Source of the DNA: Sinimarinibacterium flocculans
GTDB lineage: Bacteria > Pseudomonadota > Gammaproteobacteria > Nevskiales > Nevskiaceae
DNA: 64,000 bases
Direction of reading: 5' to 3'
Assembly (NCBI RefSeq): GCF_003201205.1
Contig: NZ_QICN01000002.1
Coordinates: 421,780 to 485,779 of the forward strand
This document shows, one piece after another, positions 1-43,164 of the stretch (within the stretch, counting starts at the first letter, position 1; each line of letters begins with the position of its first letter). A program made the translations under genes and the position numbers. Below the pieces are notes generated by a model. It was not told where the DNA came from. It saw nothing but the letters and a program-made list of their open reading frames with translations, and made no database searches.

Positions 1-1707
1 CAGGAACAGCAGCGTCTCCTCACCCAGCGAGAACTCGAGCCCGACCTTGGGGCTGAAGCTGTGCTGCGTGTCGGACAGCAGGTTGCTGTCCGGATCGGCA
101 GGGAACAGGGCGGGCGCGTCGCGGTTGCGCGTGAGCGTCTGGTAGGACTCGATGATGAAGCGCTCCTCCGACTGGTAGCGCGCGCCCAGCGTCATCCGCA
201 GCCGGTCCGTGAAGCTCACGGTCATCTGCCCGAAGTAGGCCAGCGACCGCGCGCCGAGTTGGCCGTACTGGTTGATGCCGGGCCCTTGCCCGTCGCCGAG
301 AACCGGCAGGTCGAGCAGTCCGGTGATGGGGCCGAGCAGCGGATTGGCGAGATTGAGCTTGATGCTCAGACCTTCCTTGTAGCCCTGGTCCGCCCGGAAG
401 TAGTACATGCCGGCGATCCAGTTCAGCCAGCCGGCGCCCCAGGTGCCGTCGTTGGACAGCAGCTGCAGCTCGGCCGTCTGCACGTCGCCGAACAGGTCGC
501 CGTCCACCGACAGCAGCGGCGTCGGCGAACCGTCGAGATCGTAGAACGCCGTGTTCTCGATGGACTGATCGGAGGTCAGCACGCGGATGTCGAGCCACGG
601 CAGCGTCCATTCGGCGCGCCCGTAGAAGACCGTGTTCTCGACACCGTTGTCGACCGGTGCGCTGAGCTCGCCGTCGTATCCGGTCTGCGGCTGGATGAGG
701 GCGCCGAGGAGCGGGCTCGGTGCGTAGTTGAGCTGGAACAGCGAGCCCGCTCCGTCCTGCTCCGAGCGCAGGGCCGCAAGCTCGATCTCCAGCGTATCCG
801 TCGGCCGTATCGCCATCTTCACGCGCGCGCCCTTCGCGACGACGGGTTCGAGCGGCTGCCCGGCCGCGACGCCGTCCATGTAGAAGTCCTCGCGGTTGTG
901 GTAGGCGGAGACGCTCATCGCCATGGACTCGCCCAACGGCAGATTCAGGTAGCCGCGGTTCTTGATGCTGTTGAAGGCACCGACGCTGCTCTGCACCGAA
1001 CCGGAGAACACCTCGAAATCCGGCGCCGGGGTGTGAATGCTGATGGCCCCGCCGACGGCGTTGCGGCCGAACAAGGTGCCCTGCGGCCCCTTGAGCACCT
1101 CGATGCGCTCGACGTTGCCGAAGTTCTGCGCAAGGCCCTGGCCGAACGGGAAGTAGATGTCGTCGATGTAGTAGGCGACGCTCGGGTCGCCGAGCAGGAA
1201 CACGTCCGAGCCGAGGCCGCGCAGATAGACGATCGCGAAACCGATGCTGTTGGAGAAGTTCAGCGCCGGCACGATCAGCGACAGCTTGGTCGGATCGTCC
1301 ACGCCCAGCGCATCCAGCTTGTCGCCGCTGAAGGCTTGGACGGAGATCGGCACGTCTCGCAGGTTTTCCTCGCGCTTCTGCGCGGTGACGACGATTTCCT
1401 CGACCAGGCGGTTCGTCGGCCGCTCGCGCACGACCGGGGGCGGTGGGTCCTCGGCCACGCGAATCACGTCCAGCTCGTCCGCCACCTCGACGTCCGCCGC
1501 CGGAGAATCCGGCGTGCCCAACGTGGTCTGCGGCGCGTCCGGTGCGTCACCTTTGCTGTCCCCGGCAGGCGCCTGCTGCGGCTCGCTGCCGAGCAGAAAG
1601 TCCAGATCATCCTGCGCCGACGCGGCGCCCGCGACGAGGATCAGTGCCAGAGAGACCAGCCCCGGCGAGAGGGCCCGTTCGTGACGCTTGCGCACACCCG
1701 CGTTCAT
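1..1707 (-). CDS. TonB-dependent receptor, partial (C-terminus outside window)
   Basis: Outer-membrane, TonB-energised receptor for uptake of a large or hydrophobic substrate. The readable 569 residues start with a signal peptide (basic N-terminus, then hydrophobic LVSLALILVAGAASA). An acidic Pro-rich linker follows, then the plug-domain entry EEIVVTAQKREENLRDVPIS and the plug core VERIEVLKGPQGTLFGRNAVGG, and the start of the beta-barrel. The reading frame is open to the window edge, so about 200-300 barrel residues are missing. The ATG overlaps the stop of the upstream monooxygenase gene by 4 bases (ATGA), making this the last visible gene of the operon that starts with the linalool-dehydratase-like gene. 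The substrate is unknown; context suggests a terpenoid or related lipid. The family call is secure. Confidence 0.93.
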   Translation of the reverse strand, partial: MNAGVRKRHERALSPGLVSLALILVAGAASAQDDLDFLLGSEPQQAPAGDSKGDAPDAPQTTLGTPDSPAADVEVADELDVIRVAEDPPPPVVRERPTNRLVEEIVVTAQKREENLRDVPISVQAFSGDKLDALGVDDPTKLSLIVPALNFSNSIGFAIVYLRGLGSDVFLLGDPSVAYYIDDIYFPFGQGLAQNFGNVERIEVLKGPQGTLFGRNAVGGAISIHTPAPDFEVFSGSVQSSVGAFNSIKNRGYLNLPLGESMAMSVSAYHNREDFYMDGVAAGQPLEPVVAKGARVKMAIRPTDTLEIELAALRSEQDGAGSLFQLNYAPSPLLGALIQPQTGYDGELSAPVDNGVENTVFYGRAEWTLPWLDIRVLTSDQSIENTAFYDLDGSPTPLLSVDGDLFGDVQTAELQLLSNDGTWGAGWLNWIAGMYYFRADQGYKEGLSIKLNLANPLLGPITGLLDLPVLGDGQGPGINQYGQLGARSLAYFGQMTVSFTDRLRMTLGARYQSEERFIIESYQTLTRNRDAPALFPADPDSNLLSDTQHSFSPKVGLEFSLGEETLLFL

Positions 1708-3242
1708 TCCACCCGCTCCTGTGCCTGATCCCGGAAATGCGAGCGCTCGGTGCTGGCCTGCGCTGGCGTGAGTTCGTACTCGGCCAGGTCCGGCCGACGC
1801 ATGTCGCGGTAGAAGCGCGCCGGTGGATGCGCGTAGAGATTCGGGTCGCCCGAGGCATCGATGTACCAGCTTCGACAGCCGCCCGTCGCCCAGATGGTCC
1901 GGCGGACGGCCTGCGCCAGATCGGCGTTGTAGCGCTCGAACGACAGGCGCCGCGGCGATACCGCTGCGAGGCCGCGCCTGCGCATCGCGTCGAGCACCTG
2001 CACGATGTAGCGGATCTGGATCTCGCTGACCGAGACCAGCGAAATGTTTCCGACCGGACCGCCGGGACCTTCGAGAAACCACAGGTTCGGAAAGCCGGGC
2101 ACCGACATCGCCCGGTGCGCGCGCGGCGCCTCGCCCCAGACATCCGCCAGCCGCTGCCCTTCGCTGCCGATCACGTCCACCGGCAGGATGAAGCGGTTGC
2201 TGTGGAAGCCCGTGCACAGCACCAGGGTGTCGAGCGCGTGCAAACGTCGGTCGCGCGTGCGCACCCCCTCGGGTTCGAGGCGCTCGATGGCGTCTGTCAC
2301 CAGCTCGACGTTGTCGCGGACGATGGCCTCGTAGAACGTCGAGCAGATCACCAGGCGCTTGCAACCCGCGCGGTAGTCCGGCGTGAGCTTGCGGCGGAGG
2401 TCCGGGTCCTTGACCGTGCGCTGCAGGTTCCAGCGGCAGGTCCATTCGAACAGCCGCTGCATCAGGGTGTTGCCCATCGTCGCCGGCCCCAGCGTGCGTT
2501 CCAGCGCGAGGCGATGCGCGTGGTACATCAGCCGCGGCAGGCCCGGCACTCGCGCCATCAGCCATTTCCACCAGCCGGAATACCGCTTCTGCAGCAGCGG
2601 AAACATCCACTGCGGCGTGCGCTGGAAGCACGACAGGCGGGCGCAGCGCGCGCCGAGCGCGCCGACGATCTGCGCCGCCGTGGACCCGGTGCCGATGACG
2701 CCGACACGCGCGCCATCGACCGGCGCATCGTCTTCCCAGCGCGATGAATGGAAGACCCGTCCACGGAAGTCCCGCAGGCCCGGAATCTCCGGCAGCTTCG
2801 GATGATGGAGGATGCCGGCCGCAGAGATGACGATGTCGTAGGTGTCCTCGCCATGCCGGGTCACCAGGCGCCAGCGCTGCCCGGTGCTGACGAGACGTTC
2901 CACCGGCGTTTCGAAGCGGATGCAGCGGCGGATGTCGAAGTCGTCCGTCACCTTCTCCAGATAGGCGCGGATTTCCTCGCCGAGCGGATAGCGGTGCGAC
3001 CAGCGTGGATTCGGCGCGAAGGTGAACGAGTACCAGTACGACGCGATGTCGCAGGACAGACCCGGATACCGGTTGTCGCGCCAGGTGCCGCCGACGGCAG
3101 CGGCTTTCTCGTAGACCGTCACGTCGTCGTAGCCGGCCTTGCGCAGATGCACGACCGCAGCGAGGCCCGACAGGCCGCTGCCGATGATCGCGATCTTCGG
3201 CATGCGACCGGCGGCCGCCCAGGGCATGAGGGTGTCGTCCAT
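1704..3242 (-). CDS. Type I Baeyer-Villiger / flavin-containing monooxygenase
   Basis: A 512-residue FAD/NADPH monooxygenase predicted to insert one oxygen atom next to a ketone, giving an ester or lactone. The FAD Rossmann motif GSGLSG is at residues 21-26. The segment RYPGLSCDIASYWYSF (58-73) is typical of Baeyer-Villiger enzymes. The fingerprint F-x-G-x3-H-x3-W is present at 159-169, followed by E rather than the usual P or D. The NADPH Rossmann motif GTGSTA is at 184-189. The chosen ATG lies 2 bases after the acyl-CoA ligase stop; a longer upstream reading overlaps that gene and is unlikely. The stop overlaps the receptor start by 4 bases. The neighbours (SDR, CoA ligase, linalool-dehydratase-like protein) suggest alcohol to ketone to ester or acid processing. 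The substrate is not known. Confidence 0.88.
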   Translation of the reverse strand: MDDTLMPWAAAGRMPKIAIIGSGLSGLAAVVHLRKAGYDDVTVYEKAAAVGGTWRDNRYPGLSCDIASYWYSFTFAPNPRWSHRYPLGEEIRAYLEKVTDDFDIRRCIRFETPVERLVSTGQRWRLVTRHGEDTYDIVISAAGILHHPKLPEIPGLRDFRGRVFHSSRWEDDAPVDGARVGVIGTGSTAAQIVGALGARCARLSCFQRTPQWMFPLLQKRYSGWWKWLMARVPGLPRLMYHAHRLALERTLGPATMGNTLMQRLFEWTCRWNLQRTVKDPDLRRKLTPDYRAGCKRLVICSTFYEAIVRDNVELVTDAIERLEPEGVRTRDRRLHALDTLVLCTGFHSNRFILPVDVIGSEGQRLADVWGEAPRAHRAMSVPGFPNLWFLEGPGGPVGNISLVSVSEIQIRYIVQVLDAMRRRGLAAVSPRRLSFERYNADLAQAVRRTIWATGGCRSWYIDASGDPNLYAHPPARFYRDMRRPDLAEYELTPAQASTERSHFRDQAQERVE

Positions 3243-3244
3243 GC

Positions 3245-4807
3245 TCAGTTCACCTGCCGGTCGCGGCCTTCCCAGTACGGCGCACGCAGCTCGCGTTTCA
3301 GGATCTTGCCGGCCCCGGAGAGCGGCAGCGCTTCGTTCCGGAACTCGACGCTGCGCGGACACTTGTAGCCGGCGATCCGCCCGCGGCAATGGGCGATCAG
3401 CGTCGCCTCGTCGACGGGCTGGCCCGGCCTGGCGACGACGATGGCGTGCACCATCTCGCCCCACTCCGGATCGGGTACTCCGATCACTGCCACCTGGCCG
3501 ACCGCCGGATGGGTCGACAGCGCGCTTTCGACCTCGGTCGAATACACGTTCTCGCCGCCGCTGACGATCATGTCCTTCGCGCGATCGACCAGAAACAGGT
3601 AACCGTCCGCATCGAGATAGCCGACGTCGCCGGTGTGCACCCAGCCGTCGCGCAGCACCTCCGCCGTCTGCCGCGGCTTGTTCCAGTAGCCCAGCATCGC
3701 GTTCGGCCCGCTGGCGCAGACTTCGCCGATCTCGCCGGCAGCCAGCGTCGTGCCCTCCGGCCCGGCGATCCGGATGTGCACGCCGTAGGCGGCGCGGCCG
3801 GCGGAGCGCAGCAGGCGGCTGCGCTCGCCCTGCCCCACGTGATCGTCCGGCAGCAGCAGCGACACCACCGGCGCCATCTCGGTCTGTCCGTAGGCCTGCA
3901 TCAGCCGTATGTGCGGCGTGGTCGCAAACACGCGGCGCAGCAGCCCCTCGGGCATCGGCGACGCGCCGTAGAGAATGCGCCGGAGTCCGGCGAGCTTTCC
4001 GGCGTCGAAGTCCGGATGGTCAAACAGCATCTGCATCATCGTCGGCACCAACAGGGCGTCGGTGAGCCGTGTGTCCGCGATGACCTGCTGCACGCGCTGC
4101 GGCTCGAAGGCCGGAACGATCACGTGGCGCGCGGCCAGCAGCGTGAACGTGTACAGCACGGCGAGATCGGCCAGATGGAACATCGGCGCCGCGTGCAGTA
4201 CGGCGCTGTGCTCGTCGGCTTCGATCGCCGCGACGACGCTCAGTGCGCTGGACAGCAGCGCCGCATGCGTCAGCATCACGCCCTTGGGAAATCCGGTCGT
4301 GCCTCCGGTGTAGAAGATGCCGGCGATCTGCTGCTCGCCCTGTACCTGCTCGTGACATTCCGCGGCTTCGGCGATCAACCGCTCCAGCGGCAGCGCCCAG
4401 TGCGGACACTCATCGGCATCGCCGATGAACAGGCAGCCGCCCAGGTCGCTCCCCTGCGCCCGCAACGCGTCGACCGTCGGCAGGAACGTCCGGTCGAACA
4501 GCAGCCATCGCGATTGCGAGTCGCGCAGCGCATAGCTCAGTTCCATCACCGCCCAGCGGATGTTCAGCGGAACGATGCGCGCACCGATCTGCGGCACGGC
4601 GAACAGGGCATCGAAGTAGCGATCGCTGTTCAGTGCGAGGATCGCGACCTGCTCGTTGCACGAGACGCCCAGCGCGCGAAGCGCCGACGCCAGCCGGCGT
4701 ACGTCGCGCGCGGTCTCGGCCCAGCTTCGATCCCGACCCATGAAGGTGGTGGCCATAGCGCGTGCGCGCTGCTGCTCGGCGCGCCAGATCATTTGACAGA
4801 GATGCAT
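3245..4807 (-). CDS. AMP-dependent acyl-CoA ligase (ANL superfamily)
   Basis: A 520-residue enzyme that should activate a carboxylic acid to its CoA thioester through an acyl-AMP. The P-loop YTGGTTGFPKG is at about residues 166-176. Further motifs are YGQTEM, GWVHTGDVGYLDADGYLFLVDR and the C-terminal lysine motif SGAGKILKRELR. The length is normal for the fatty/aromatic acyl-CoA ligase families. It sits 36 bases after the SDR gene and 2 bases before the monooxygenase gene, so it is in the same transcript. It differs from the FadD3-like ligase further along and is not obviously a steroid enzyme. It probably activates the acid released by the terpenoid-like pathway; the exact substrate is unknown. 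Confidence 0.88.
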   Translation of the reverse strand: MHLCQMIWRAEQQRARAMATTFMGRDRSWAETARDVRRLASALRALGVSCNEQVAILALNSDRYFDALFAVPQIGARIVPLNIRWAVMELSYALRDSQSRWLLFDRTFLPTVDALRAQGSDLGGCLFIGDADECPHWALPLERLIAEAAECHEQVQGEQQIAGIFYTGGTTGFPKGVMLTHAALLSSALSVVAAIEADEHSAVLHAAPMFHLADLAVLYTFTLLAARHVIVPAFEPQRVQQVIADTRLTDALLVPTMMQMLFDHPDFDAGKLAGLRRILYGASPMPEGLLRRVFATTPHIRLMQAYGQTEMAPVVSLLLPDDHVGQGERSRLLRSAGRAAYGVHIRIAGPEGTTLAAGEIGEVCASGPNAMLGYWNKPRQTAEVLRDGWVHTGDVGYLDADGYLFLVDRAKDMIVSGGENVYSTEVESALSTHPAVGQVAVIGVPDPEWGEMVHAIVVARPGQPVDEATLIAHCRGRIAGYKCPRSVEFRNEALPLSGAGKILKRELRAPYWEGRDRQVN

Positions 4808-4843
4808 GTGGGTCTCCGGGGTTGAGTCGCCTTCGGAATTGCG

Positions 4844-5644
4844 TCAGGACCGCGTCGGCGCGGTTCTGCGATCCGGGCGCTCCAGCAGCCGTACCAGCGC
4901 CCACAGCAGGCCGGGGGACAGGCGACGGGCCCACACGCTGGCGCGCGTGTACCAGCCGGGGAACACCCAGAAGCGGCGCCGGCGCAGCGCGGCGTCGACG
5001 GCGTCGATGACCTGCGGCGCAGTGATCGGGGGCAGCAGATCGAGAAAGCGCGGCCAGCGCGTCGCCCTGCCCTGCGCCAGCAACGGCGTCTTCACGGCGG
5101 GGGGACAGACACAGACGACCTGCACGCCGCTGCCGCGGCATTCCTGATGCAGGACCTCGGTGTAGGTCACGGCGGCCGACTTGGTCGCGGCGTACGCCCC
5201 CATGAAGAAGATCGGCACGTGCCCGGACAGCGAAGCGAAGCTCACGAACTCCCCGCGGCGTCGGGCGATCAGCAGCGGCATCGTCGCCGCCGCGACGTTG
5301 ACCAGCCCGCCGACATTGATGTCGAACAGTCGCCGCACGGTCGCAGCGTCCATGTCGACGAGTCGTCCCAGCGGCATGATCGCCGCCGCATTGACGACGC
5401 GACGCAGGGGCCCGAGACGGGCTTCGGCCTGCGTCACCGCGTCGCGCACCGCCCCGGCGTCACGCACGTCGCAGGTCAGCTTCAGCAGTTGCGGCGACGT
5501 GCCGAGCTGGTCGAGGCCCGCCGTATCGACGTCCACGGCTGCCACCGACCACCCCTGCTGCAGCAGGCGGCGTGCGCAGAGCTGTCCCATGCCGCTGCCG
5601 GCACCGGTGATGAAAGCCACGTCGCGATCGCCCGCCATCGTCAT
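4844..5644 (-). CDS. Short-chain dehydrogenase/reductase (SDR)
   Basis: A 266-residue classical SDR expected to interconvert an alcohol and a ketone with NAD(P). The cofactor motif TGAGSGMG is at residues 13-20. The N-A-A-A variant of the usual NNAG motif occurs in VVNAAAIMPLG, and the catalytic serine and YxxxK are in SFASLSG and YAATK. The C-terminal 40 residues are basic and hydrophobic (RRFWVFPGWYTRASVWARRL), which may dock the protein to membrane. The first ATG is taken because it overlaps the upstream stop as ATGA; a second ATG two codons later is possible. A plausible role is oxidation of a secondary alcohol to the ketone used by the Baeyer-Villiger enzyme two genes on. Confidence 0.88.
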   Translation of the reverse strand: MTMAGDRDVAFITGAGSGMGQLCARRLLQQGWSVAAVDVDTAGLDQLGTSPQLLKLTCDVRDAGAVRDAVTQAEARLGPLRRVVNAAAIMPLGRLVDMDAATVRRLFDINVGGLVNVAAATMPLLIARRRGEFVSFASLSGHVPIFFMGAYAATKSAAVTYTEVLHQECRGSGVQVVCVCPPAVKTPLLAQGRATRWPRFLDLLPPITAPQVIDAVDAALRRRRFWVFPGWYTRASVWARRLSPGLLWALVRLLERPDRRTAPTRS

Positions 5645-7572
5645 GGCGCCGGCGCGACCAGCAGACGCTGCGGTGCGGCCTCGATGCGAAGGTCGAAGCG
5701 GGCCCGGCCACCGGCATCCGCGACGCAGACCTGTGCATCGCCGATGCGATAGCGCTGACCCGGCCGCAGCTGATCCAGACCGAGCGTCGCTGTCCGGCCG
5801 ACCGCGGCGCTGCAGCCCGGCGCGAGTTCCAGCGCCAGTGCCGAGCCGTCATTGCGCGCGTAGCAGACCAGCACATCCGGGTATGGGGCTTCGGCCAGAA
5901 CCGGACCGGCGCGCTCGACGTCGGGAATGCCGTCGGCATGCATCGAGCGTCGCTGGTTCGGCCGGGCCGTCCAGTGATAGAGCGTCGTCGCATGGGCCTG
6001 CGTGGACACGCCATCGAGCGAGACGGCACCGTCGTTCTCCGGCCGCCAGTCGAATTCCTCGCGGACGCGCTCGCGCAGCAGCGCCGCCACCTCGAGATCG
6101 CCCATCTCGGCTGCGGCGGCGCCGATCTGCGTATAGGTTGTGATCATCGACGGCCGGTAACTGCCCGTATCGAGCCGGTCCCAGCCGCGCGCCTCGATCT
6201 CGATCCGCCCGTCGAGCACGCGGATGTAGTCCATGCGCGCGATCTCCCAGGAACGGCGCGCGATGTCCGGAAAGGTGCCGTGCTGGAAATGCGCGGTGAC
6301 GCTGTCCGCCATCGCCGAGGTCAGCATCGGCAGTGTCAGGCCGGTGTGCGTCGAGCGGATCGCCAGCACCCGGCCGTCGAGCGTGCAGAACTCGTCGTCG
6401 AAGCGGCGCCTGTAGTCGGACTCGATCTCCGCGAACCAGCGCGTGCCGTACAGACGGTCGTGCACCTTCAGCGCGATCGCGCTGAAGTTGTTGCACATCG
6501 GGTAGATCCAGTTCGGTTCGCAGGGGAAGAGCGTGAAGGGGCTCTTGCGGTGGCTGCGATGGAGCACCTCGCAGATCTCGCTGAACCGGTAGCGCCACTC
6601 GCGGCCGGACGGATGCCGCAGGACCAGGGGCTCGTCCTGGTAGCGCGTGTCGCCGGTGTTGGAGATGTACTCGGCGAGCATCGCCATGTACCAGCCGTGA
6701 TACATGACGTTGTCACGGTGGTGGATGGGATTCGGATCGAGCGCGAGGTTGCCCCAGGCGTTCTCCCAGACCCAGTACTTCCAGTTGCGGTGATCGAGCA
6801 TCTTCAGATGCAGCCGGCGCTGGGCTTCACTCAGGTAGCCGGTGAAGGCCGGCGTCGCGCCGTAGTGCACGCCGGAGAGCGCATAGCCCATGCCGCAAAG
6901 CGCATAGCGCAGCGCCCCGAACTGGAACTGGTCGACCCAGTTGATGCCGTCGTAGCGATCGACCGGCTGCAGCGCACGATCGAGGACATGTCGCAGCAGT
7001 GGCAGCGCATCCCGGTTCAGCGGGGCGGGCTCGAACCGGCCGGCGGGGCGCAGCTGCAAGGCCCGTTCGCGCAACGCGACATTGCGGCGGGCACGATGCC
7101 GCAGCGCCTGCGCGGTCGTGCGCCGCGCGGTGCGCACGGCGAGCCCCCCGGCCAGGCCGAGTATCGCCATGACCAGCCACGGCGCTCCGGTCCAGGGCAC
7201 ATCCGGCACGGCGATGGCGGCCGCCAGCGCGGACAGCAGCCAGACGGCGACCGGAGCCACGACATTGCCGCTGCCGAACCATGCGAAGAAGCCAAGGCCG
7301 AAGAGCGCGATCGTCAACAGCCATGCGGCCACGCTGGCGGCGACGCCGGAAAGGCTCGTGAAGCCCGCCGCAAAACCTGCGCCGGGCATCAGCAGGCCGA
7401 GCCCGAAGGCACGCCACGCAGACGGCGCTGCCGTCCACAGCATCCAGCCCAGTACCGCCGCGCCGGCGTAGACAGCGGCCAGGCGCCGGTACCGCTGTCT
7501 CGTCAGCGGCCCGGCGGCGCGGTCCCGCAACGGGATCGTTGCGACCGTCACAACCGGCGATGCAGGGTCCAC
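5641..7572 (-). CDS. Membrane-anchored linalool dehydratase/isomerase-like protein
   Basis: A 643-residue protein. Residues 30-145 hold about four hydrophobic membrane segments. Residues about 200-560 resemble linalool dehydratase-isomerase (Ldi) of Castellaniella, an alpha/alpha barrel that hydrates or dehydrates and isomerises C10 terpene alcohols. The best match is CEPNWIYPMCNNF with C351 and C360, the same 9-residue spacing as the two active-site cysteines of Ldi, followed by a conserved hydrophobic helix ending DRLYGTRW. NWVDQF (D214) may match the catalytic Asp region, and DNVMYHGWYM aligns with ENIMYKGHLN, where the Ldi His is Trp here and a His sits two positions earlier. Ldi itself is secreted and lacks the membrane domain. 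The start is GTG, divergent from a TetR gene. The superfamily call is fairly sure; the reaction is unknown. Confidence 0.78.
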   Translation of the reverse strand: MDPASPVVTVATIPLRDRAAGPLTRQRYRRLAAVYAGAAVLGWMLWTAAPSAWRAFGLGLLMPGAGFAAGFTSLSGVAASVAAWLLTIALFGLGFFAWFGSGNVVAPVAVWLLSALAAAIAVPDVPWTGAPWLVMAILGLAGGLAVRTARRTTAQALRHRARRNVALRERALQLRPAGRFEPAPLNRDALPLLRHVLDRALQPVDRYDGINWVDQFQFGALRYALCGMGYALSGVHYGATPAFTGYLSEAQRRLHLKMLDHRNWKYWVWENAWGNLALDPNPIHHRDNVMYHGWYMAMLAEYISNTGDTRYQDEPLVLRHPSGREWRYRFSEICEVLHRSHRKSPFTLFPCEPNWIYPMCNNFSAIALKVHDRLYGTRWFAEIESDYRRRFDDEFCTLDGRVLAIRSTHTGLTLPMLTSAMADSVTAHFQHGTFPDIARRSWEIARMDYIRVLDGRIEIEARGWDRLDTGSYRPSMITTYTQIGAAAAEMGDLEVAALLRERVREEFDWRPENDGAVSLDGVSTQAHATTLYHWTARPNQRRSMHADGIPDVERAGPVLAEAPYPDVLVCYARNDGSALALELAPGCSAAVGRTATLGLDQLRPGQRYRIGDAQVCVADAGGRARFDLRIEAAPQRLLVAPAP

Positions 7573-7601
7573 GGCGCTCTCCTCGCGATCTGATCGTTCT
7601 G

Positions 7602-7620
7602 CGCCGATAAACTATCGGCG
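7602..7620. promoter_or_regulatory. Perfect palindrome, probable TetR operator
   Basis: An 8-base inverted repeat CGCCGATA-AAC-TATCGGCG lies in the 71-base gap between the divergent linalool-dehydratase-like and TetR genes. The symmetry and size fit a TetR-dimer site, and its position would let it control both directions. Function is inferred from position. Confidence 0.7.
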
Positions 7621-7643
7621 GCTCCTGAACAGATCGACCGAGA

Positions 7644-8270
7644 ATGTCCAAACGGCCGGCGGACGAAAAAACCCGCGCGCATGCTGGGGCGCGCCTGGAC
7701 GTCGCGGCGCTGCTCACGGAAGCGATGGAGCGGCAGATCCGCAAGGGCGCGTCGTTCCAGGCGCTGACGGTCGACGGGCTCGCGCGCGAGGCGGGAGTGT
7801 CCCGGTCGAGCTTCTACCTGCGATTCAAGGACAAGAACGATCTGCTCGCCTATCTGCTGGAGCGCGTGGCCAGCGAGATCGGCGTCGCCGCGGGCGACTG
7901 GTTCGCGCATCCGGAAAGCACCGGCCCGGACCAGGTGATGACGGCGGTGGCCGGCATCGTCGACGTCTTCGAGCGTCACCGCGCGGTCATGCAGGCGGCG
8001 ATCGAAACCTCGGGCCAGGATCCGAAGATCGATTCGCTGTATCGCCAGCTCCTGAGAAACCTGCTCCGCACCAATCGCCGCGTCGTTCAGCGCGCGGCGA
8101 TGGCAGGACGGACGCGCCCTGACCTGAGCACCGACGTCGGCGATGCCCTGGTGTGGATGATCGAGCGCTGCAGCTATCAGCTCGCCAGCGCGGACGCCCG
8201 CGGGCGACAGCGCGCGATCGGGGCGTTGTCGCACATCGTCTGGCACAGCCTGTTCGAAGATGAACGCTAG
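7644..8270 (+). CDS. TetR/AcrR-family transcriptional regulator
   Basis: A 208-residue DNA-binding regulator. The N-terminal helix-turn-helix spans about residues 35-70 (FQALTVDGLAREAGVSRSSFYLRFKDKNDLL), the classic TetR form. The C-terminal ligand and dimer domain is helical and not assignable to a ligand. It is transcribed away from the linalool-dehydratase-like operon, with a palindrome between them. It is most likely the local, ligand-released repressor of that operon and of itself. Confidence 0.88.
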   Translation: MSKRPADEKTRAHAGARLDVAALLTEAMERQIRKGASFQALTVDGLAREAGVSRSSFYLRFKDKNDLLAYLLERVASEIGVAAGDWFAHPESTGPDQVMTAVAGIVDVFERHRAVMQAAIETSGQDPKIDSLYRQLLRNLLRTNRRVVQRAAMAGRTRPDLSTDVGDALVWMIERCSYQLASADARGRQRAIGALSHIVWHSLFEDER

Positions 8271-8521
8271 TGCAGCGCTCTCAACGAAACGTTGGAAGAT
8301 GGCCGAAGGACTTTCGTGCAGATCGAGGCGCGAATCGGAGGCGTAGCGGGCACTACGGCGACGATGAGCAACGAAGAGCTGCGCGAAAGGACTCGGCCAG
8401 GGCTAACGGTTTGTTGGGAACGCTGCACTCATCCGGTGGCGCGCTAGCGTCCCGCGTGCACGCCCGCGGTCCCACACCCCGCAGTGCCACACTACGCCCC
8501 TGCCCTTCGCCGGAGTTTTTC
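8271..8521. other. Intergenic stretch without a supported gene
   Basis: About 250 bases between the TetR gene and the thioesterase. Open frames across it give low-complexity, Arg-rich translations without a family signature, so I call no gene. GGAG at 8512-8515 is the ribosome site of the next gene. Confidence 0.6.
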
Positions 8522-8896
8522 GTGGACGTCAGCGGTCGCATCGAATTTCGCATCACCGAGCAGGGGCCCGACCGCGTCGTCGGGACGATGCCGGTCCAGC
8601 CCGGCATCCTCAATCCCTTCGGCACCGCGCACGCCGGCGCCATTCTCTGGTTCGCCGACGTCTGCGCCACGGTGCTGGCTTTCGGCGGCACCGGCATGAC
8701 CCCGGGTGGCAGCGGATTTCCGCTGGCCATCAACCTCAGCGCGGCACTCACCGGCAACCAGAAGGACGGCAGCTTCACCGCCACCTCGCAATACGTGCGC
8801 AAGGGGCGCAGCCTGAGCGTCGTGCGCACCACGGTCACCGGCGACGACGGCCGGCTGATCGCCGACGTCACGACCAGCCACGTGCCGGCGAAGTAG
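8522..8896 (+). CDS. PaaI-type hotdog thioesterase
   Basis: A 124-residue single hotdog-domain protein that should hydrolyse an acyl-CoA thioester. The core GILNPFGTAHAGAILWFADVCATVLAF carries the N-P-F-G-T-A-H-A-G pattern of the PaaI/YbgC-like phenylacetyl-CoA thioesterase family. The end SVVRTTVTGDDGRLIADVTTSHV is the expected last beta-strands. A GTG start is chosen because GGAG lies 6 bases upstream and the product begins right at the domain; a longer in-frame reading would add about 84 unrelated residues. No operon partner is evident, so its role is general acyl-CoA housekeeping or unknown. Confidence 0.82.
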   Translation: MDVSGRIEFRITEQGPDRVVGTMPVQPGILNPFGTAHAGAILWFADVCATVLAFGGTGMTPGGSGFPLAINLSAALTGNQKDGSFTATSQYVRKGRSLSVVRTTVTGDDGRLIADVTTSHVPAK

Positions 8897-13766: not shown

Positions 13767-16343
13767 TCAGCGCGCCGGGTTCGTGGCGACGAGGGTCGGC
13801 TGCCGCTCGCGGAAGAACCAGGCCCCCAGCGCGGGCAGCAGACAGACCGCGCCGAACATGTTCACCAGGAACATGAAGGACAGCATCACGCCCATATCGG
13901 CCTGGAACTTGAGCGCCGAGAAGATCCACGTGGCGACGCCGACGGACATCGTGATGGCGGTGAACACCGCGGCGCTGCCGCGCTCGACCATGGCCCGCTC
14001 GAAGCTTTCGCGGAAGCTCACGGTCGGGTCGGCCATGTGGTGCTGGATGCGCTCGAACAGGTACAGGCCGTAGTCGACGCCGACACCGACGCCGAGCGCG
14101 ATCACCGGCAGCGTGGCCACCTTCAGGCCGATGCCGAGCGTCGCCATCAGCGCGTTGCAGAACACCGTGACCAGCAGCAGCGGCGTCATCACGCAGATCA
14201 CGCCGATCCACGAGCGGAAGGTGAGATAGCAGAACAGGATCAGCGAACCGAAGATCGCCAGCAGCATCGTCACCTCGGCCGCGGCCACTGCCTCGTTGGT
14301 CGCCGCCATGACGCCGACGTTGCCGCTGGCCAGCCGCAGCGTCACGCCGTCGACCGGGTTGGCCTCGACGAAGCGCTTGATCTCGGCCACGGCGTGCTGG
14401 ATCGTGTCGCCCTCGTGATCCTTCATGAAGATCATGACCTGGATCGCCTTGCAGCCCTCGTTGTTGAGGCCGAGGTTGGGATCGAAAGCCTTGGAGCCGG
14501 TGGACAGGCCGACCTGCGAACGCGGCAGCGCGCGCCAGCGCGGATTGCCCTCGTTGAACGCGGAGATCACCAGCTTGCCGATGCCGGCGACGCTGATCAC
14601 CGACTGCACGCCCTCGACACCCTTCATGTACAGCTCGAAGCGGTCGATGAGCTCCACCACCGGGTAGTGCAGGCAGGAGTCGCCTTCGAAACCGGGCGCC
14701 TCCGCGATGACCGTGAGCACGTCGACGCCGATGTCGTAAGTGCCGGCGATGACCCGGTTGTCCTGGTTGTAGCGCGAGTCCTCGTGCAGTTCCGGCACGC
14801 CCTGTCCGGAGTCGCCGATCACCAGGTCGCGGGACTTCCAGGTCGCGCCCGCAAGCAGGACCAGCGCGGCGGCGAATACCACCACCGCGAAGCGCGGCTC
14901 GGCACAGTTGCCGATCATGCGCACCAGCGGCGAGCGCCGCTCGATGCCGCTGTCGCCGGCATGCGCCATCGCCGACTGCTCGAGCCGCAGGTGCGCCAGG
15001 ATGATCGGCAGGATCATCTTGTTGGTGATGATCATCAGCAGCACGCCGACGCAGGCGGTGATGCCGAGTTCGTGCACGATCGGGATGTCGATCAGCATGA
15101 TCACGCCGAAGCCGAGCGCCTCGGTCAGCAGGCCGGCGGCACCGGGAATGAACAGCTTGCAGAACGAGGCATGGGCCGCGGCGGCCGGCGTCGCGCCGTT
15201 GCCGACCTCCATGCGCCAGGCATTGGTCATCTGCACCGCGTGCGAGACGCCGATCGAGAAGATCAGGAACGGCACCAGGATCGACATCGGGTCGATGCCG
15301 TAGCCGAGCAGCGGCAGCACGCCGATCAGCCACAGCACCGGCAGCATCGCGACGAACAGCGCGACGACCGTCGTGCGCAGCGAACGCGTGTACCAGTACA
15401 GCAGCACCGCCGTGATCGCGAACGCGATCGCAAAGAACGCGAACACGCCGACCAGGCCCTTGATCACGTCGCCCAGCAGGCGCGCGAAGCCGATGATGTT
15501 GACCTCGATGTCCGGGTTGTACGCCGGGTTGTCGACAGTCTCGACCTCGACCTCGCCGCCCTCGACGATGAATTCCTGCTTGCCCTCGGCCCCGGGCACG
15601 TCGCGCAGCACGCGGAACTTCTGCATGCCGAGCATCGCGCCGTAGTCGACGTACCCCTCAGCAACGACTTCACCGGCCTCGAAGGGTTCGCGCGCACGCT
15701 TCATCCGGTAGACGTACTGGATCGGGCTCTCGTAACGCCCGCGAATCTCCTCGAGCTTGCCCTGCACCTCCCAGTAGTCGACCTTGACCCCGGCGTTCGG
15801 GTCGTACTCGTGCAGGTCGGCCTGCACCATCGCGCCCTTGAGGTCGACGGCGACGAGCTGTCCGATCTGGCCGGAGTGCTCGACGTTGTTGCGCACGCGA
15901 TCGAGATCCTGCTCGGTGCCAGAGTAGCGCGCCGGCACCACCGGCTCGCCGCGGAAGCCGTCCTCGGTGATCTCGATGTAGTAGACGTTGGGCGTGAACA
16001 GCGACGAGACCTTGGTGCGGTTGATGCCCGGAATGAAGAACACCTCGTCGGTGGTCTCCTGCAGGGCCTTCATGAACGCCGGGTTGTAGATGTCGCCTTC
16101 GCCCTTCCACCGCAGATTCACGAGGATCTTGTTGGCGCCGGAGAAGTCGTCCATGTACTGCATCATCGTGCGCATGTACGGATGCTCGACCGGGATCAGC
16201 TTGAGGAAGCCCGGGTCGAGCTGGACCTTGGTGGCGCTGTAGCCGAAGGCGATCGTGATCAGCGCGAACAGCACGGCGAGCACCTTGCGGCTGCCGATCA
16301 GGAAGTCGGCCATGCGCGCGACCGCGCGTTCCGAACGGGTCAT
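13767..16343 (-). CDS. RND/MMPL-family transporter (copy 2)
   Basis: An 858-residue inner-membrane protein with one N-terminal helix, a large periplasmic domain, five helices, a second periplasmic domain and five more helices. The N-terminal HPYMRTMMQYMDDFSGANKILVNL and the loops around DPMSILVPFLIFSIGVSHAVQMTNAWR and GVGVGVDYGLYLFERIQ are typical of the MMPL/HpnN-like branch, related to sterol-sensing-domain proteins such as NPC1. These proteins move lipids or other hydrophobic compounds, driven by protons. The ATG overlaps the stop of the YCF48-like gene by 4 bases, implying a complex. It is a paralogue of the 871-residue transporter downstream of alkB. Its substrate is probably hydrophobic. 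Confidence 0.88.
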   Translation of the reverse strand: MTRSERAVARMADFLIGSRKVLAVLFALITIAFGYSATKVQLDPGFLKLIPVEHPYMRTMMQYMDDFSGANKILVNLRWKGEGDIYNPAFMKALQETTDEVFFIPGINRTKVSSLFTPNVYYIEITEDGFRGEPVVPARYSGTEQDLDRVRNNVEHSGQIGQLVAVDLKGAMVQADLHEYDPNAGVKVDYWEVQGKLEEIRGRYESPIQYVYRMKRAREPFEAGEVVAEGYVDYGAMLGMQKFRVLRDVPGAEGKQEFIVEGGEVEVETVDNPAYNPDIEVNIIGFARLLGDVIKGLVGVFAFFAIAFAITAVLLYWYTRSLRTTVVALFVAMLPVLWLIGVLPLLGYGIDPMSILVPFLIFSIGVSHAVQMTNAWRMEVGNGATPAAAAHASFCKLFIPGAAGLLTEALGFGVIMLIDIPIVHELGITACVGVLLMIITNKMILPIILAHLRLEQSAMAHAGDSGIERRSPLVRMIGNCAEPRFAVVVFAAALVLLAGATWKSRDLVIGDSGQGVPELHEDSRYNQDNRVIAGTYDIGVDVLTVIAEAPGFEGDSCLHYPVVELIDRFELYMKGVEGVQSVISVAGIGKLVISAFNEGNPRWRALPRSQVGLSTGSKAFDPNLGLNNEGCKAIQVMIFMKDHEGDTIQHAVAEIKRFVEANPVDGVTLRLASGNVGVMAATNEAVAAAEVTMLLAIFGSLILFCYLTFRSWIGVICVMTPLLLVTVFCNALMATLGIGLKVATLPVIALGVGVGVDYGLYLFERIQHHMADPTVSFRESFERAMVERGSAAVFTAITMSVGVATWIFSALKFQADMGVMLSFMFLVNMFGAVCLLPALGAWFFRERQPTLVATNPAR

Positions 16344-17461
16344 GACGCGTCTCCGGCCGCGGCCTGCGGCTGCTTGATGACGAGGCCGCCCTCGCCTCCC
16401 GTGAGCCAGCCGCCGGATGCCAGCGGCTCGATCGTGACGATGCCGCTGCGCGTGGGCGCCGCCACCTGCTGGAAGCTGCGCCCGTCGTCGCCGGAGCGCA
16501 GCAGCGTACCGGCGGCGCCGACCAGCAGCGCCCGCCCCTGGCCGTCGACGCTGCCGCCGAACAGCGACTCGCCGCCGGGCAGGCGGCTCTCGGTCCAGGT
16601 CTGGCCCAGATCGTCGCTGCGGTAGGCGTGCCCACGCATGCCGAAGACGATCAGCGTGCCCGACGGCAGCGACAGTGCCCCGAACAGCGAGCCGTCGTAG
16701 ACCGACGGCAGCTCGGTCCAGCTCTGGCCGTCGTCGGTGGAGCGCAGCAGCAGGCCGCGTTCACCGACCAGGATCAGCGAGCCGTCTGCCGCCACGGTCA
16801 TGCCGTTGATGTGCCGCTGGCCGCTGAACGCCTGCGCCTCGAAGGCGGCGAAGGGGTCGGCATAGGGGTCGAGCGCCTCTTCCGGCGCCGACGATTCGTC
16901 TTCCGTGGTTTCCGGCGTGACGATGTCCAGCTCGTACGGCTGCCAGCTCCGGCCCCGATCCTGCGAGACCCGCATGACGCCGAAGGCGCCGTAGGCGAAC
17001 ACCCGGTCGCCGACGAGGCCGGACACGCCCAGCAGCGGATCGCTGCCCTCGCTGTAGGCCACCTCCTGCCACGAATCGCCGCGATCCTCGCTGAGCAGGA
17101 TCCAGCCGTCGTGGCCGACCGCGAGCACGCGCTGTTCGTCGATGAAGCGCACGCGCGTCAGCGTCGATCCGCGCTGCGGTGCCGGTGCTGCCGACCGCCA
17201 TGGCCCCGCGGCGCCGTCGGCGACGAGGATCTGCCCCTGCTCGCCGACGGCGACGAAGCGCTCGCCGGCACGGTCTACGCCGTTGACCAGCAGCCGCTCC
17301 GGGTAGACCTGCGTGTCCGGGAACGCCGGTGGCTGTCTCGGCGAGAACGAGTACACCGCACCGCCGACGACGAGCGCGGCCACCAGCAGGGCCGGCCAGC
17401 CGGCTACGACACTCCCGGCCGCCTGGCGCTGGGCCACGGTCGCGGACGCCGAATCGTTCAT
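16340..17461 (-). CDS. YCF48/BNR-repeat propeller protein, membrane-anchored (copy 2)
   Basis: A 373-residue protein. An N-terminal membrane segment lies at about residues 20-42 (GWPALLVAALVVGGAVYSF). Repeats of the sialidase/YCF48 type follow, with S-x-D-x-G-x-x-W asp-boxes: SEDRGDSW, SQDRGRSW, STDDGQSW, SDDLGQTW and SGDDGRSF. This gives a predicted periplasmic beta-propeller. YCF48-like proteins accompany RND/DUF1302/DUF1329 genes in many proteobacteria, and their function there is not established. It is translationally coupled to the RND gene, supporting a stable partnership. An acidic insert (about 170-195) is an oddity. Confidence 0.8.
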   Translation of the reverse strand: MNDSASATVAQRQAAGSVVAGWPALLVAALVVGGAVYSFSPRQPPAFPDTQVYPERLLVNGVDRAGERFVAVGEQGQILVADGAAGPWRSAAPAPQRGSTLTRVRFIDEQRVLAVGHDGWILLSEDRGDSWQEVAYSEGSDPLLGVSGLVGDRVFAYGAFGVMRVSQDRGRSWQPYELDIVTPETTEDESSAPEEALDPYADPFAAFEAQAFSGQRHINGMTVAADGSLILVGERGLLLRSTDDGQSWTELPSVYDGSLFGALSLPSGTLIVFGMRGHAYRSDDLGQTWTESRLPGGESLFGGSVDGQGRALLVGAAGTLLRSGDDGRSFQQVAAPTRSGIVTIEPLASGGWLTGGEGGLVIKQPQAAAGDAS

Positions 17462-17596
17462 GAGTCTCTCCTCTCTAGCGCTTGCCCCGGTCTATGGCCG
17501 GGCTCTGGCGGCGCGGCCTTGGTGCGCCCGCGCGCCAGCAGTCTGATCCGGGCCACCTGCCCCCGCAAGCGACCGACCCTCTCCCCCCCGCCCCGA

Positions 17597-18799
17597 TTAC
17601 GGCAACTCGAACAAGCCCGCCGCCCCCATGCCGCCGCCGATGCACATCGTCACGACGACGTGCCTGACGCCGCGGCGGCGCCCCTCGATCAGCGCATGCA
17701 TGACCATGCGCGCCCCCGACATGCCGAACGGATGGCCGATCGCGATCGCGCCGCCATCCACATTGAGCCTGTCCTGCGGGATGCCGAGCGTGTCGCGGCA
17801 GTACAGCACCTGGCTCGCGAAGGCCTCGTTGAGTTCCCACAGACCGATGTCCGCCACCTTGAGTCCATGCTGCGCGAGCAGCTTCGGCACCGCGTAGACC
17901 GGCCCGATGCCCATCTCGTCCGGCTTGCAGCCGGCGACGGCGATGCCGCGATAGATGCCCAGCGGCCTCAGCCCGCGGTCCTGCGCCGTCTTGCCGCTCA
18001 TCACCACCACGGCCGCCGCGCCATCCGACAGCTGCGAGGCGTTGCCGGCGGTGATGAACTGGCCTTCCTTGACGAAATGGCCGTTCTTCCACACCGGCTT
18101 GAGTGCATTCAGGCCTTCGAGCGTGGTCTCGGCGCGATTGCCCTCGTCCTTGCCCAGGGTCACCGACTGCTTGCCGGTCGGATGGCCTTCCTTGTCGTAG
18201 AGCTGCCTGTCGACGGTGATCGGCACGATCTCGTCGTCGTAGCGACCGGCGGCCTGCGCCGCGGCGGTGCGCTGCTGGCTGTGCAGGCTGTATTCGTCCT
18301 GCGCGGCACGCGAGATCTTGTAGCGCTCGGCGACGATCTCCGCCGTCTCGATCATCTGGATGTACGCCGTCGGCGCCGCCGCAAGCACCGCGTCGGAAAC
18401 GAAGCGGTAGCTGTTCTTGTGCTTGTTCTGCACCAGCGAGATCGACTCCAGACCGCCGGCGACGACGATGTCCTGCTCGCCGGCGAGGATGTTCTTGGCG
18501 GCGAAGCCGATCGCCATCAGCCCCGAGCCGCACTGGCGGTCGAGGGTCATGCCCGGCACGGACTCCGGCAGGCCACCGGTATAGGCGCACAGCCGGCCGA
18601 GGTTGTAGGCCTGCGTGCCCTGCTGCGCGGCGCAGCCGAGGATGACGTCGTCGACCTCCTTCGGATCGATGCCGGCGCGCGCCACCGCGTGCCTGACCAC
18701 ATGGCCGCCGAGCACCGGCGCCTCGGTGTCGTTGAACGCGCCGCGATAGGCCTTGCCGATGCCGGTGCGGGCGACGGAAACGATGACAGCTTGATTCAT
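17597..18799 (-). CDS. Thiolase family acetyl-CoA acyltransferase
   Basis: A 400-residue thiolase expected to cleave a 3-ketoacyl-CoA with CoA. All three catalytic elements are present: C90 in DRQCGSG, His in GHPFGMSG, and the second Cys in CIGGGMG near the C-terminus. NEAFA is also present. It differs clearly from the FadA6-like thiolase further along. The ATG is placed where the family N-terminus ([16 protein letters not shown]) begins; upstream in-frame sequence is unrelated. It follows ipdF and maoC in the same direction, so these three supply dehydrogenase, hydratase and thiolase activities. The chain it shortens is unknown. Confidence 0.9.
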
Positions 18800-18901
18800 G
18801 GCAGGTTCTGGCCGTGCGGGCTGGACGATGACCGCGTGCATCGCCCGAGGCGCGCACGACGGTCCGCCTAAGCTATGCGGGGCGGCCGCGCCCCGCTTCA
18901 T

Positions 18902-19360
18902 TCAAAAGTAGTAGCGCGAAATCGTGTCGACGACGCAGGCCGGCTTGGCCTCGTTCTCGATCTCGACGGTCAGGCGCAAGGTCGACTGCAGGCCACCGTC
19001 CCTAGCGCGCTCCACCGCCACCAGTTCGCCACGACCGCGGATGCGCGCGCCAACGCGCACCGGCGCCGGAAAGCGCACCTTGTCGCAGCCGTAGTTCACG
19101 CCCATCTTCATGTTGCGCACCTCGATCAGCTGCGGCATGAAGCGCGCTGCCAGCGACAAGGTGAGATAACCGTGTGCGACGCAGGCGCCGAAGGGGCCGT
19201 CCTTGGCCTTGACCGGATCGACGTGGATCCATTGATGGTCGTCGGTCGCGTCGGCGAACAGGTTCACGCGCTCCTGCGTGACCGGCATCCACTCGGTGAC
19301 GCCGAGGTCGCGGCCGACTGCGGCCAGCAGGGCATCTGCTGAATCGAAGACGATGGGCAT
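18902..19360 (-). CDS. MaoC-type (R)-specific enoyl-CoA hydratase
   Basis: A 152-residue single hotdog protein. The complete hydratase-2 motif is present, with Asp and His in FADATDDHQWIHVDPVKAK and the following GPFGACVAHGYLTLSL. It should add water to a trans-2-enoyl-CoA. One base separates its start from the ipdF stop, so the two are co-translated. Small MaoC hydratases often act in steroid side-chain or fatty-acyl beta-oxidation; which one applies here is not shown by the sequence. Confidence 0.88.
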   Translation of the reverse strand: MPIVFDSADALLAAVGRDLGVTEWMPVTQERVNLFADATDDHQWIHVDPVKAKDGPFGACVAHGYLTLSLAARFMPQLIEVRNMKMGVNYGCDKVRFPAPVRVGARIRGRGELVAVERARDGGLQSTLRLTVEIENEAKPACVVDTISRYYF

Positions 19361-19361
19361 G

Positions 19362-20159
19362 TCAGGCTCTCTGGCTGGAGGCGGAAATCACTTCGCCAAC
19401 GAGGTAGGACGCATAGTCCGAAGCGAGGAACACCATCACGTTGGCGATCTCCCAGGCCTCGGCGCCGCGGCCGAAGGCTTCGCGGCTGGCCAGCTGCGTC
19501 AACAGCTCCTCGGGCGCGCTCTTGCGCAGATGGTCGTGGAACACGATCGACGGCGACACCGCGTTGATGCGCACGCCGAACTCGGCGGCTTCCAGCGCCG
19601 CGCAGCGCGTCAGCGCCATCACCCCGGCCTTGGCCGCGGCGTAGTGCGCCTGCTCGGTCTGCGCGCGCCAGCCGAGCACCGAGGCGTTGTTGACGATTGC
19701 GCCGCGCCCGCGCGGCTGCATCTTGCGCAGCATCGCGCGGGTCATGCGGAAGGTGCCGTTGAGGGTCACGTCGAGGACGCGCAGCCACTCTTCGTCGCTC
19801 ATGTCGACGATGCGCTGGCTGCCGCCAAGGCCGGCGTTGTTGATCAGCACGTCGACGCCGCCGAGCCTGTCCTCGGCCATGTCGACCAGCGCCTGGACCT
19901 CGGCCTCCTGCGTGACGTTGCAGACCTGGCCGTGGATCACGGCCTGCGGAAACTCCTTCGCCAGCGCCTGCGCGGCCTCCGCGGTGCGGCGCGGATGCAT
20001 GTCCGACAGCACCAGGCCGCGCGCACCTTCCTCGAGGCAGCGCTTCGCCGTCGAGAAACCGATGCCGGCGCCGGCCGCCGCGGTGATCAGCACGGACCTG
20101 CCGGCCAGCAGGCCATGCGGCGGCACATAGGACGGCGGCGGAACGACGATTCGACTCAT
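19362..20159 (-). CDS. ipdF: IpdF-like hydroxy-HIP-CoA dehydrogenase (SDR)
   Basis: A 265-residue SDR very like M. tuberculosis IpdF (Rv3559c), which oxidises the 5-hydroxyl of the hydroindane-propionyl-CoA intermediates in steroid C/D-ring breakdown. The cofactor motif is TAAAGAGIG (26-34), an unusual form shared with IpdF. NNAG is at 107-110, the catalytic Ser in NNASVLGWRAQ, and Y173/K177 in HYAAAKAGVMALTRC. The tail EAFGRGAEAWEIANVMVFLASDYASYL also matches IpdF closely from memory. The chosen ATG (MSRIVV) gives the family length. It is separated from the main HIP operon by about 10 kb and sits with maoC and a thiolase downstream of the alkB-RND block. Confidence 0.88.
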   Translation of the reverse strand: MSRIVVPPPSYVPPHGLLAGRSVLITAAAGAGIGFSTAKRCLEEGARGLVLSDMHPRRTAEAAQALAKEFPQAVIHGQVCNVTQEAEVQALVDMAEDRLGGVDVLINNAGLGGSQRIVDMSDEEWLRVLDVTLNGTFRMTRAMLRKMQPRGRGAIVNNASVLGWRAQTEQAHYAAAKAGVMALTRCAALEAAEFGVRINAVSPSIVFHDHLRKSAPEELLTQLASREAFGRGAEAWEIANVMVFLASDYASYLVGEVISASSQRA

Positions 20160-20268
20160 GCGGGCTCCTTGGCAGGCCCGCAGTGTGCGCACCCGGGCCG
20201 GGCCCGGCTTCGCCCGGAAGGACGAGGCCGCCGCCGCTCGTCCGCGGCCGCGCGGTCGCGGGTACCTG

Positions 20269-21273: not shown

Positions 21274-21286
21274 CGGCGGGGCCTTC

Positions 21287-23785: not shown

Positions 23786-23821
23786 GTGTCGTGTTCTCCC
23801 GGAACTGCGCTTCGCACCGGA

Positions 23822-23853
23822 ACCGGCGTGCGGTCGGATGCCCGCACGCCGGT
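23822..23853 (-). other. Stable 12-bp intergenic hairpin
   Basis: Perfect inverted repeat with arms ACCGGCGTGCGG and CCGCACGCCGGT and an 8-base loop, between the DUF1329 and DUF1302 genes of one operon. No T-run follows on the transcribed strand, so it is not a standard terminator. An mRNA-stabilising or processing role is possible. Confidence 0.6.
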
Positions 23854-23876
23854 CCCCTTCTTGGATCGCGGATGGC

Positions 23877-29389: not shown

Positions 29390-29440
29390 GTTTGCTCCTC
29401 GAACGCGCCACCATGCTGCGCGGCGACGCCGTGTCGAGCC

Positions 29441-29477
29441 TGTCATAATCGGACATTAAACTGTCATAATGCGACAT
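29441..29477. promoter_or_regulatory. Two-copy direct repeat, probable AraC-type activator site
   Basis: TGTCATAATCGGACAT and TGTCATAATGCGACAT are 16-base direct repeats with starts 21 bases apart, two helical turns, in the gap between alkB and the divergent AraC gene. Tandem direct half-sites at that spacing are the usual AraC/XylS operator layout. The second copy runs into the AraC ATG. CATAAT within each copy may also serve as a -10 element for the regulator gene. Confidence 0.75.
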
Positions 29478-32843: not shown

Positions 32844-32891
32844 GCGGGGATTATCCGCGGCCCGGACCGGCGCCCTCATCATCCGATGGCA

Positions 32892-34216: not shown

Positions 34217-34245
34217 GGACCAAACCCTCGAAACGCTCCTGACTT

Positions 34246-34362: not shown

Positions 34363-34372
34363 ACTAAAAAAC

Positions 34373-35521: not shown

Positions 35522-35556
35522 GTCAGTTCTCGGGGGTTGCGGTTGAGGGTCTGTAT

Positions 35557-35613: not shown

Positions 35614-35622
35614 GGAGGAGCA

Positions 35623-36681: not shown

Positions 36682-36692
36682 GCTCTTCGTCC

Positions 36693-37859: not shown

Positions 37860-37860
37860 A

Positions 37861-37915: not shown

Positions 37916-37936
37916 CGGCGCGCGTCGGATTCATCA

Positions 37937-40709: not shown

Positions 40710-40720
40710 GGACGCTCCGC

Positions 40721-43162: not shown

Positions 43163-43164
43163 GA

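Follow-up and report, generated by a model that had tools for sequence, protein, structure and literature searches.

We analysed a 64,000-nucleotide stretch of the genome of Sinimarinibacterium flocculans (contig NZ_QICN01000002.1, positions 421,780 to 485,779), hereafter called the window, one end of which carries a homologue of linalool dehydratase/isomerase (Ldi) within a run of putative catabolic genes. The coordinates and gene functions given in a preliminary description of this locus were correct, and the features, numbered from the first letter of the window, are as follows.

5641..7572, minus strand: membrane-anchored Ldi homologue of the linalool isomerase (Lis) type, 643 amino acids, GTG start, assigned from PF18566, hydropathy and alignments
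4844..5644, minus strand: short-chain dehydrogenase/reductase (SDR), 266 amino acids, PF00106 (E 5e-41)
3245..4807, minus strand: acyl-CoA ligase (AMP-binding), 520 amino acids, PF00501 (E 5.9e-75), over the cut-off of NCBIfam NF004837
1704..3242, minus strand: type I Baeyer-Villiger monooxygenase (BVMO)-like flavin monooxygenase, 512 amino acids, PF00743 (E 6.5e-18)
1..1707, minus strand, continuing left of the window: TonB-dependent receptor, Plug domain (E 8.6e-14), 818 amino acids when whole (L014)
7602..7620: perfect 8+3+8 palindrome, candidate TetR operator, in the 71-bp gap between the Ldi homologue and the TetR gene
7644..8270, plus strand: TetR-family regulator (E 9.6e-10), divergent from the Ldi homologue
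8270..8896, plus strand: open reading frame directly 3' of TetR, no Pfam match at 1e-5

The genes of the minus-strand run are tightly spaced. The Ldi homologue and the SDR overlap by 4 bp, the SDR and the ligase are 36 bp apart, the ligase and the BVMO 2 bp, and the BVMO and the TonB receptor overlap by 4 bp. As proposed earlier, the Pfam matches and the gaps of -4 to +36 bp support a coupled run of SDR, acyl-CoA ligase, BVMO and TonB receptor with a TetR gene, and the gene classes and tight spacing point to an operon of catabolic appearance whose target is probably a hydrophobic alcohol. Left of the window, on the same strand (L014), follow a 181-residue protein without Pfam match, an Amidohydro_2 protein, and an 836-residue class III CoA-transferase with two matched stretches. 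The SDR carries TGxxxGxG, NAA and YxxxK, which we take to be its family motifs. The BVMO carries GSGLSG and GTGSTA (two GxGxxG/A motifs) and FRGRVFHSSRW (FxGxxxHxxxW) followed by E, not P/D; the BVMO fingerprint is presumably FxGxxxHxxxW(P/D).

Residues 222-523 of the 643-residue protein matched the Pfam family PF18566 (Ldi) with E 1.4e-72 and 245.3 bits, so that the hidden Markov model search suggested in the preliminary description gave a score far over the curated cut-off of 26.1. Solved Ldi chains were matched at E 6.5e-07 by the single sequence (phmmer) and at E 4.6e-26 with a profile of 66 homologues. A homologue scan gave 79 distinct loci (the best 80 of 82 confirmed stretches), and the window protein was aligned with 65 proteins from 63 loci whose query span was at least 560 residues (alignment A2, 66 rows). 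Among its cysteines (positions 226, 334, 351, 360, 396, 570, 587 and 616), C351 and C360 aligned with the CEP...CN cysteines of Ldi, which correspond to the catalytic C170 and C179 (PMC6600392). Both were invariant in all 66 sequences, the window protein counted in, as were E352, P353, W355 and N361. An Ldi-family homologue with both cysteines at the Ldi spacing, as first described, is therefore confirmed.

Other key positions of Ldi differed. The residues reported as key in Ldi are H128, Y44, D38, C179 and C170 (PMC12455561), and the enzyme is reported to be soluble and periplasmic, with a C48-C101 disulfide (PMC6600392, PMC12455561). The position of H128 was taken by W294 in the window protein and also by tryptophan in Lis of Thauera, and over the 66 sequences this column held W in 43, Y in 14 and F in 9. 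C101 corresponded to D260 in the profile alignment, which begins at Ldi residue 64, with D38, Y44 and C48 falling before the aligned part.

Ahead of the Ldi domain, about four hydrophobic segments were found within residues 31-148 (from 19-residue hydropathy windows rather than a trained transmembrane predictor), and P63, G66 and G102 of this N-terminal part were invariant (66/66). The membrane domain noted earlier is thus supported. The novelty then claimed for it was ruled out by Lis of Thauera linaloolentis 47Lol (2016; EC 5.4.4.4), which has the same design, and by the 79 loci with relatives, 63 of which had near-full-length ones. According to PMC4791888, Lis is a linalool/geraniol isomerase of 644 amino acids with four transmembrane helices predicted in its first 139 residues and a cytosolic Ldi-like domain; its activity was in the inner membrane and required a reductant, ultraviolet-visible spectra showed no cofactor, and dehydratase activity sets Lis and Ldi apart. 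Because Lis is known and relatives span 63 loci, the two-domain design is both widespread and previously described. The Thauera lis locus (L069) matched the window protein with 34% identity over window residues 13-624. Judged by its sequence, the window protein is Lis-like rather than Ldi-like, because it has W at the H128 position and D at the C101 position. Given the reported difference between Lis and Ldi in dehydratase activity, isomerisation would be the safer guess for its reaction.

We favour, with about even confidence, the reading that the locus is a TetR-controlled operon by which a hydrophobic terpenoid-type alcohol is taken up and degraded, with an allylic-alcohol isomerase (or dehydratase) of the Lis type supplying an oxidation to acyl-CoA. 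Tertiary alcohols are hard to attack enzymatically. The TonB receptor would import the substrate, and the Lis-type enzyme, probably anchored in the inner membrane with the catalytic domain on the cytoplasmic side, would protonate the hydroxyl of an allylic alcohol, aided by two reduced cysteines. Water would be re-added at the other end, turning a tertiary alcohol into a primary or secondary one, or would possibly be lost to give a diene. The SDR may then convert the isomerised alcohol to the aldehyde or ketone, further oxidation would give the acid, and the ligase would form the acyl-CoA, while the BVMO might act on a ketone formed en route or oxidise the aldehyde. The substrate, the direction and the order of these steps are proposals.

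This reading draws on the family membership with both cysteines, the end-to-end homology with Lis, the W and D replacements and the tight spacing, and also on the neighbourhoods of relatives. Neighbour classes were assigned with 17 seed proteins at E 1e-12 over the 79 loci (13 seeds counted, in 11 classes), and the inner flank (within 4 kb of the Ldi homologue, 553 kb) was compared with the outer flank (4-8 kb, 482 kb). The comparison stands without a random-locus control, related loci are not independent, and genes were called with a purpose-made GC-position script rather than a trained gene finder. In matches per 100 kb, inner versus outer, SDR genes gave 2.2 vs 0.6 (within 4 kb in 11/79 loci), ligases 2.0 vs 1.0, aldehyde dehydrogenases 2.5 vs 1.7, zinc alcohol dehydrogenases 0.5 vs 0, MPAB-type oxygenases 1.3 vs 0, P450 0.9 vs 1.0, TetR 0.9 vs 0.2, TonB receptors 0.4 vs 0.2, CoA-transferases 0.9 vs 0.6, and acyl-CoA dehydrogenases 0.9 vs 2.1. 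BVMO genes were no denser close to the Ldi homologue (4 vs 4 matches, 0.7 vs 0.8), and their enrichment there was rejected. SDR and ligase genes thus tend to accompany Ldi homologues, whereas BVMO genes do not. In L054 and L072, a zinc alcohol dehydrogenase, a ligase and an aldehyde dehydrogenase adjoin the Ldi homologue, which is the set expected for a route from alcohol to acyl-CoA, and in L076 an alcohol dehydrogenase lies beside it on a 3.7-kb contig.

The genome itself offers a possible continuation. A carboxylase subunit (G000:C4:274712-276154) shared 54% identity with the Thauera subunit that lies about 3 kb from lis, against 47% with the next Thauera subunit, with which a second carboxylase subunit of this genome paired best (52%). 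The Thauera subunit near lis is taken as AtuC from its place and from PMC4847356, and with an AtuC-like subunit an acyclic-terpenoid acyl-CoA could be carried on.

The regulatory region is also consistent with the favoured reading: in the window, L015 and L025 alike, a divergent TetR gene comes with a perfect palindrome close by. A palindrome this good arose in 18 of 2000 single-base shuffles of the Ldi/TetR gap, and its pattern at up to 3 mismatches had one match in the window (shuffle mean 0.6). Divergent TetR was kept in L015 and L025 (L026 has just 374 bases on that side), and the perfect palindromes near the Ldi starts of these two loci, that of L015 within the TetR frame as called, are different from that of the window, for which alone the shuffle control was made. 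A palindrome near a divergent TetR gene fits autoregulation, which is not proof of it. A promoter scan of 7400-7800 gave no sigma-70-like site. The open reading frame at 8270..8896, which by eye we take to be hotdog-thioesterase-like, may share the TetR transcript.

Family relationships were compared in a tree of 67 rows (A2 plus L015), made by a quick search with support from the Shimodaira-Hasegawa-like approximate likelihood ratio test (SH-aLRT) only and a midpoint root for drawing. The sequences came from Pseudomonadota, Myxococcota and Actinomycetota. The window protein grouped with L015, L025 and L026 (SH-aLRT 100), its nearest homologues at 54-58% identity, and around it stood an 18-row set (SH-aLRT 98) from Nevskiaceae, proteobacterial metagenome-assembled genomes (MAGs), Nocardia nova, Nocardia coubleae and Mycobacterium gordonae. 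The gene was patchy: at E 1e-30, 12 of the 58 genomes of the family had it (own counted). In wider samples, with three candidates scored per genome, it was found in 2 of 369 genomes of the class at E 1e-90 (own counted) and in 4 of 401 of the Nocardia family at E 1e-100. A literature search on PF18566 found no paper.

Two further observations concern the family. Mycolicibacter sinensis and Nocardia harenae (L045, L096) have two different Ldi paralogues whose starts are about 5 kb apart. Distant 525-residue Ldi relatives without the membrane part occur in L023 (8956-10533) and L024 (9371-10948). Their neighbours include BVMO-type and ligase genes, as well as genes that, judged by eye, encode TetR, SCO1-like and aldehyde dehydrogenase proteins.

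Several of these comparisons count against the favoured reading. Lis of Thauera fell outside the 18-row set that holds the window protein, and since the two belong to different clades, substrate and reaction may differ. The Ldi homologue was absent from all 10 congeners searched. Close matches to the SDR, ligase, BVMO or TonB receptor were lacking at L015, L025 and L026; in L015 a single SDR match, a weak one (26%), lay about 5 kb off, and L025, by eye amid housekeeping genes, had a weak aldehyde-dehydrogenase match 8.6 kb off. The earlier expectation that neighbourhoods of homologues would have these enzymes in common therefore largely failed for these three loci, and what L015 and L025 share is TetR. 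In a DNA-level comparison with 40 relatives (seven candidates scored per genome), the operon gave single-gene matches only, and at most about 1.4 of the 6.6 kb from Ldi to BVMO was covered per relative, both among the matches listed. The operon holds no aldehyde dehydrogenase gene; there were 14 Aldedh matches elsewhere in the genome (two share a frame), and the aldehyde could therefore be oxidised by an enzyme encoded outside the operon. As far as sampled, no other lineage has this gene set. With that, and with a membrane-anchored linalool isomerase already described, the operon is less new than first claimed.

Among the alternatives, the route of the preliminary description is possible but rather doubtful. 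In it, an isomerised secondary alcohol would be converted to a ketone by the SDR, to an ester or lactone by the BVMO and, after hydrolysis, to an acyl-CoA by the ligase. All four enzyme classes stand in one coupled run, and the best solved matches of the BVMO were phenylacetone, cyclohexanone and steroid monooxygenases. The Amidohydro_2 gene further left might encode a lactonase. In Nocardia coubleae L053, an SDR-Ldi pair adjoins a gene run on the other strand that encodes a wax-ester synthase, a polyketide-cyclase-like protein, a BVMO, a ligase and an aldehyde dehydrogenase. SDR, BVMO and aldehyde-dehydrogenase matches lie nearby in Nocardia nova L037. M. gordonae L044 has an SDR, a ligase and an aldehyde dehydrogenase, with a partial BVMO match 9.4 kb off, and the MAG loci L034, L035 and L038 of the 18-row set have another BVMO type 3.8-4.2 kb off, in L035 behind other genes.

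However, the lack of BVMO enrichment over the 79 loci argues against this route, and the five operon genes in the window include no esterase-fold gene. Ranked by E-value for likeness to the window BVMO, the Nocardia BVMOs beside Ldi came only 6th of 12 (G082) and 5th of 10 (G083), and none of the ligases beside Ldi in G082, G083 and G084 was among the window-ligase matches at E 1e-60. Because closer BVMO and ligase matches lie elsewhere in the Nocardia genomes, the likeness is one of enzyme classes and not of demonstrable orthologues, and an orthologous cross-phylum Ldi-SDR-ligase-BVMO module was rejected. Around BVMO relatives at 52-56% (G037, G022, G039), stretches of up to 20 kb held nothing that matched Ldi, SDR, ligase or TonB at E 1e-12. 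A literature search on linalool or tertiary alcohols and BVMO clusters found no such pathway at title and abstract level. The sequence from alcohol through ketone and ester to acyl-CoA is a proposal.

Wax-ester-synthase/DGAT genes were seen at two of these loci, one adjoining the Ldi homologue in L053 (12173-13621, Pfam) and a similar-looking one, judged by eye, in L044 (8475-10004).

An operon for steroid or triterpenoid breakdown, in which the Lis-like enzyme would remove or move a tertiary hydroxyl on a ring or side chain, is unlikely. It is brought into consideration by ring-degradation-type genes in the same window and by Ldi-homologue loci in Steroidobacter and Sterolibacteriaceae MAGs. 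The genes concerned are the following.

35623-36681: IpdE2-like dehydrogenase, below the curated cut-off
44070-44960: HsaC/BphC-like dioxygenase, HsaC and BphC models below their curated cut-offs
45180-46853: FAD-binding protein, over the generic FAD-binding cut-off only, with weaker ketosteroid dehydrogenase models below their cut-offs
47729-49279: FadD3-family ligase, over its cut-off

Against a steroid or triterpenoid role, the HsaC, BphC, IpdE2 and ketosteroid-dehydrogenase models all scored below curated cut-offs, the ring-degradation-type genes lie about 28-42 kb away, and steroid-ring genes were outside the seed set used around the other loci. The ring-degradation-type genes fall within 31713-50262, which also holds further acyl-CoA dehydrogenases recognised by start sequence. 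Elsewhere in the window, 27980-29446 encodes a fatty-acid-desaturase/AlkB-type protein fused to rubredoxin (PF00487 and PF00301), a fusion also seen in L023, and 13767-25247 holds one minus-strand run of HAE3-like transporter (below cut-off), YCF48-like, DUF1302 and DUF1329 genes.

It is very unlikely that the Ldi homologue is a recent insertion heading an unrelated operon with no role in its pathway: the partnerless L015, L025 and L026, L025 amid housekeeping genes, and the absence from congeners fit such an origin, but the 4-bp overlap with the SDR start and the SDR matches close by in 11 of the 79 loci speak against it.

A different partner was found in other Nevskiaceae. An MPAB/Lcp-type gene touches or overlaps the Ldi homologue in six Nevskiaceae loci (L027, L029, L030, L031, L033 and L036), and the same contact occurs in the Jatrophihabitans locus L091. 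A Pfam run confirmed PF09995 for the Stenotrophobium copy, a single gene that appears in both L017 and L033 and to which the other Nevskiaceae copies are 61-67% identical, and the best solved match of this copy was trans-anethole oxygenase (8s1j, E 5.2e-13), an enzyme reported to convert trans-anethole to p-anisaldehyde (PMC3774712). This likeness makes a dehydrate-then-cleave or isomerise-then-cleave route worth considering. We hold, as a conjecture of low probability, that the window clade may be a second functional branch of membrane-anchored Ldi enzymes, which would isomerise or dehydrate tertiary alcohols and pass the product to an oxygenase in an aerobic route distinct from the Atu route of Thauera. 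The oxygenase would be the BVMO in the window and the MPAB/trans-anethole-oxygenase-like protein in the other Nevskiaceae.

In the papers cited here, the enzymatic attack on tertiary alcohols is defined by one soluble and one membrane-anchored enzyme. A clade with its own partner genes is a source of candidate enzymes with which terpenes and alkenes might be produced or consumed, and it would reveal how common cysteine-based allylic chemistry is among bacteria. The membrane-anchored design dates from 2016, and the literature searched held no study of this branch of the family and its partner genes.

Compared to known systems, the window protein comes closest to Lis of Thauera in length (643 vs 644 amino acids), in an N-terminal membrane domain of about four helices followed by an Ldi-like C-terminal domain, in both cysteines, and in the W at the Ldi H128 position. 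It differs in standing in another clade of the tree and in its gene context, with SDR, ligase, BVMO, TonB receptor and TetR genes, while lis is reported with atu and geo genes (PMC4847356). With Ldi of Castellaniella defragrans (PDB 5hlr, 5g1u) it shares the Pfam family, the C170/C179 pair and the CEP...CN motifs, but it has a membrane domain, D260 for C101 and W294 for H128. The Nevskiaceae Ldi-MPAB loci belong to the same 18-row Ldi set and share the membrane domain; their partner is a PF09995 oxygenase, whereas the partners of the window gene are an SDR, a ligase and a BVMO.

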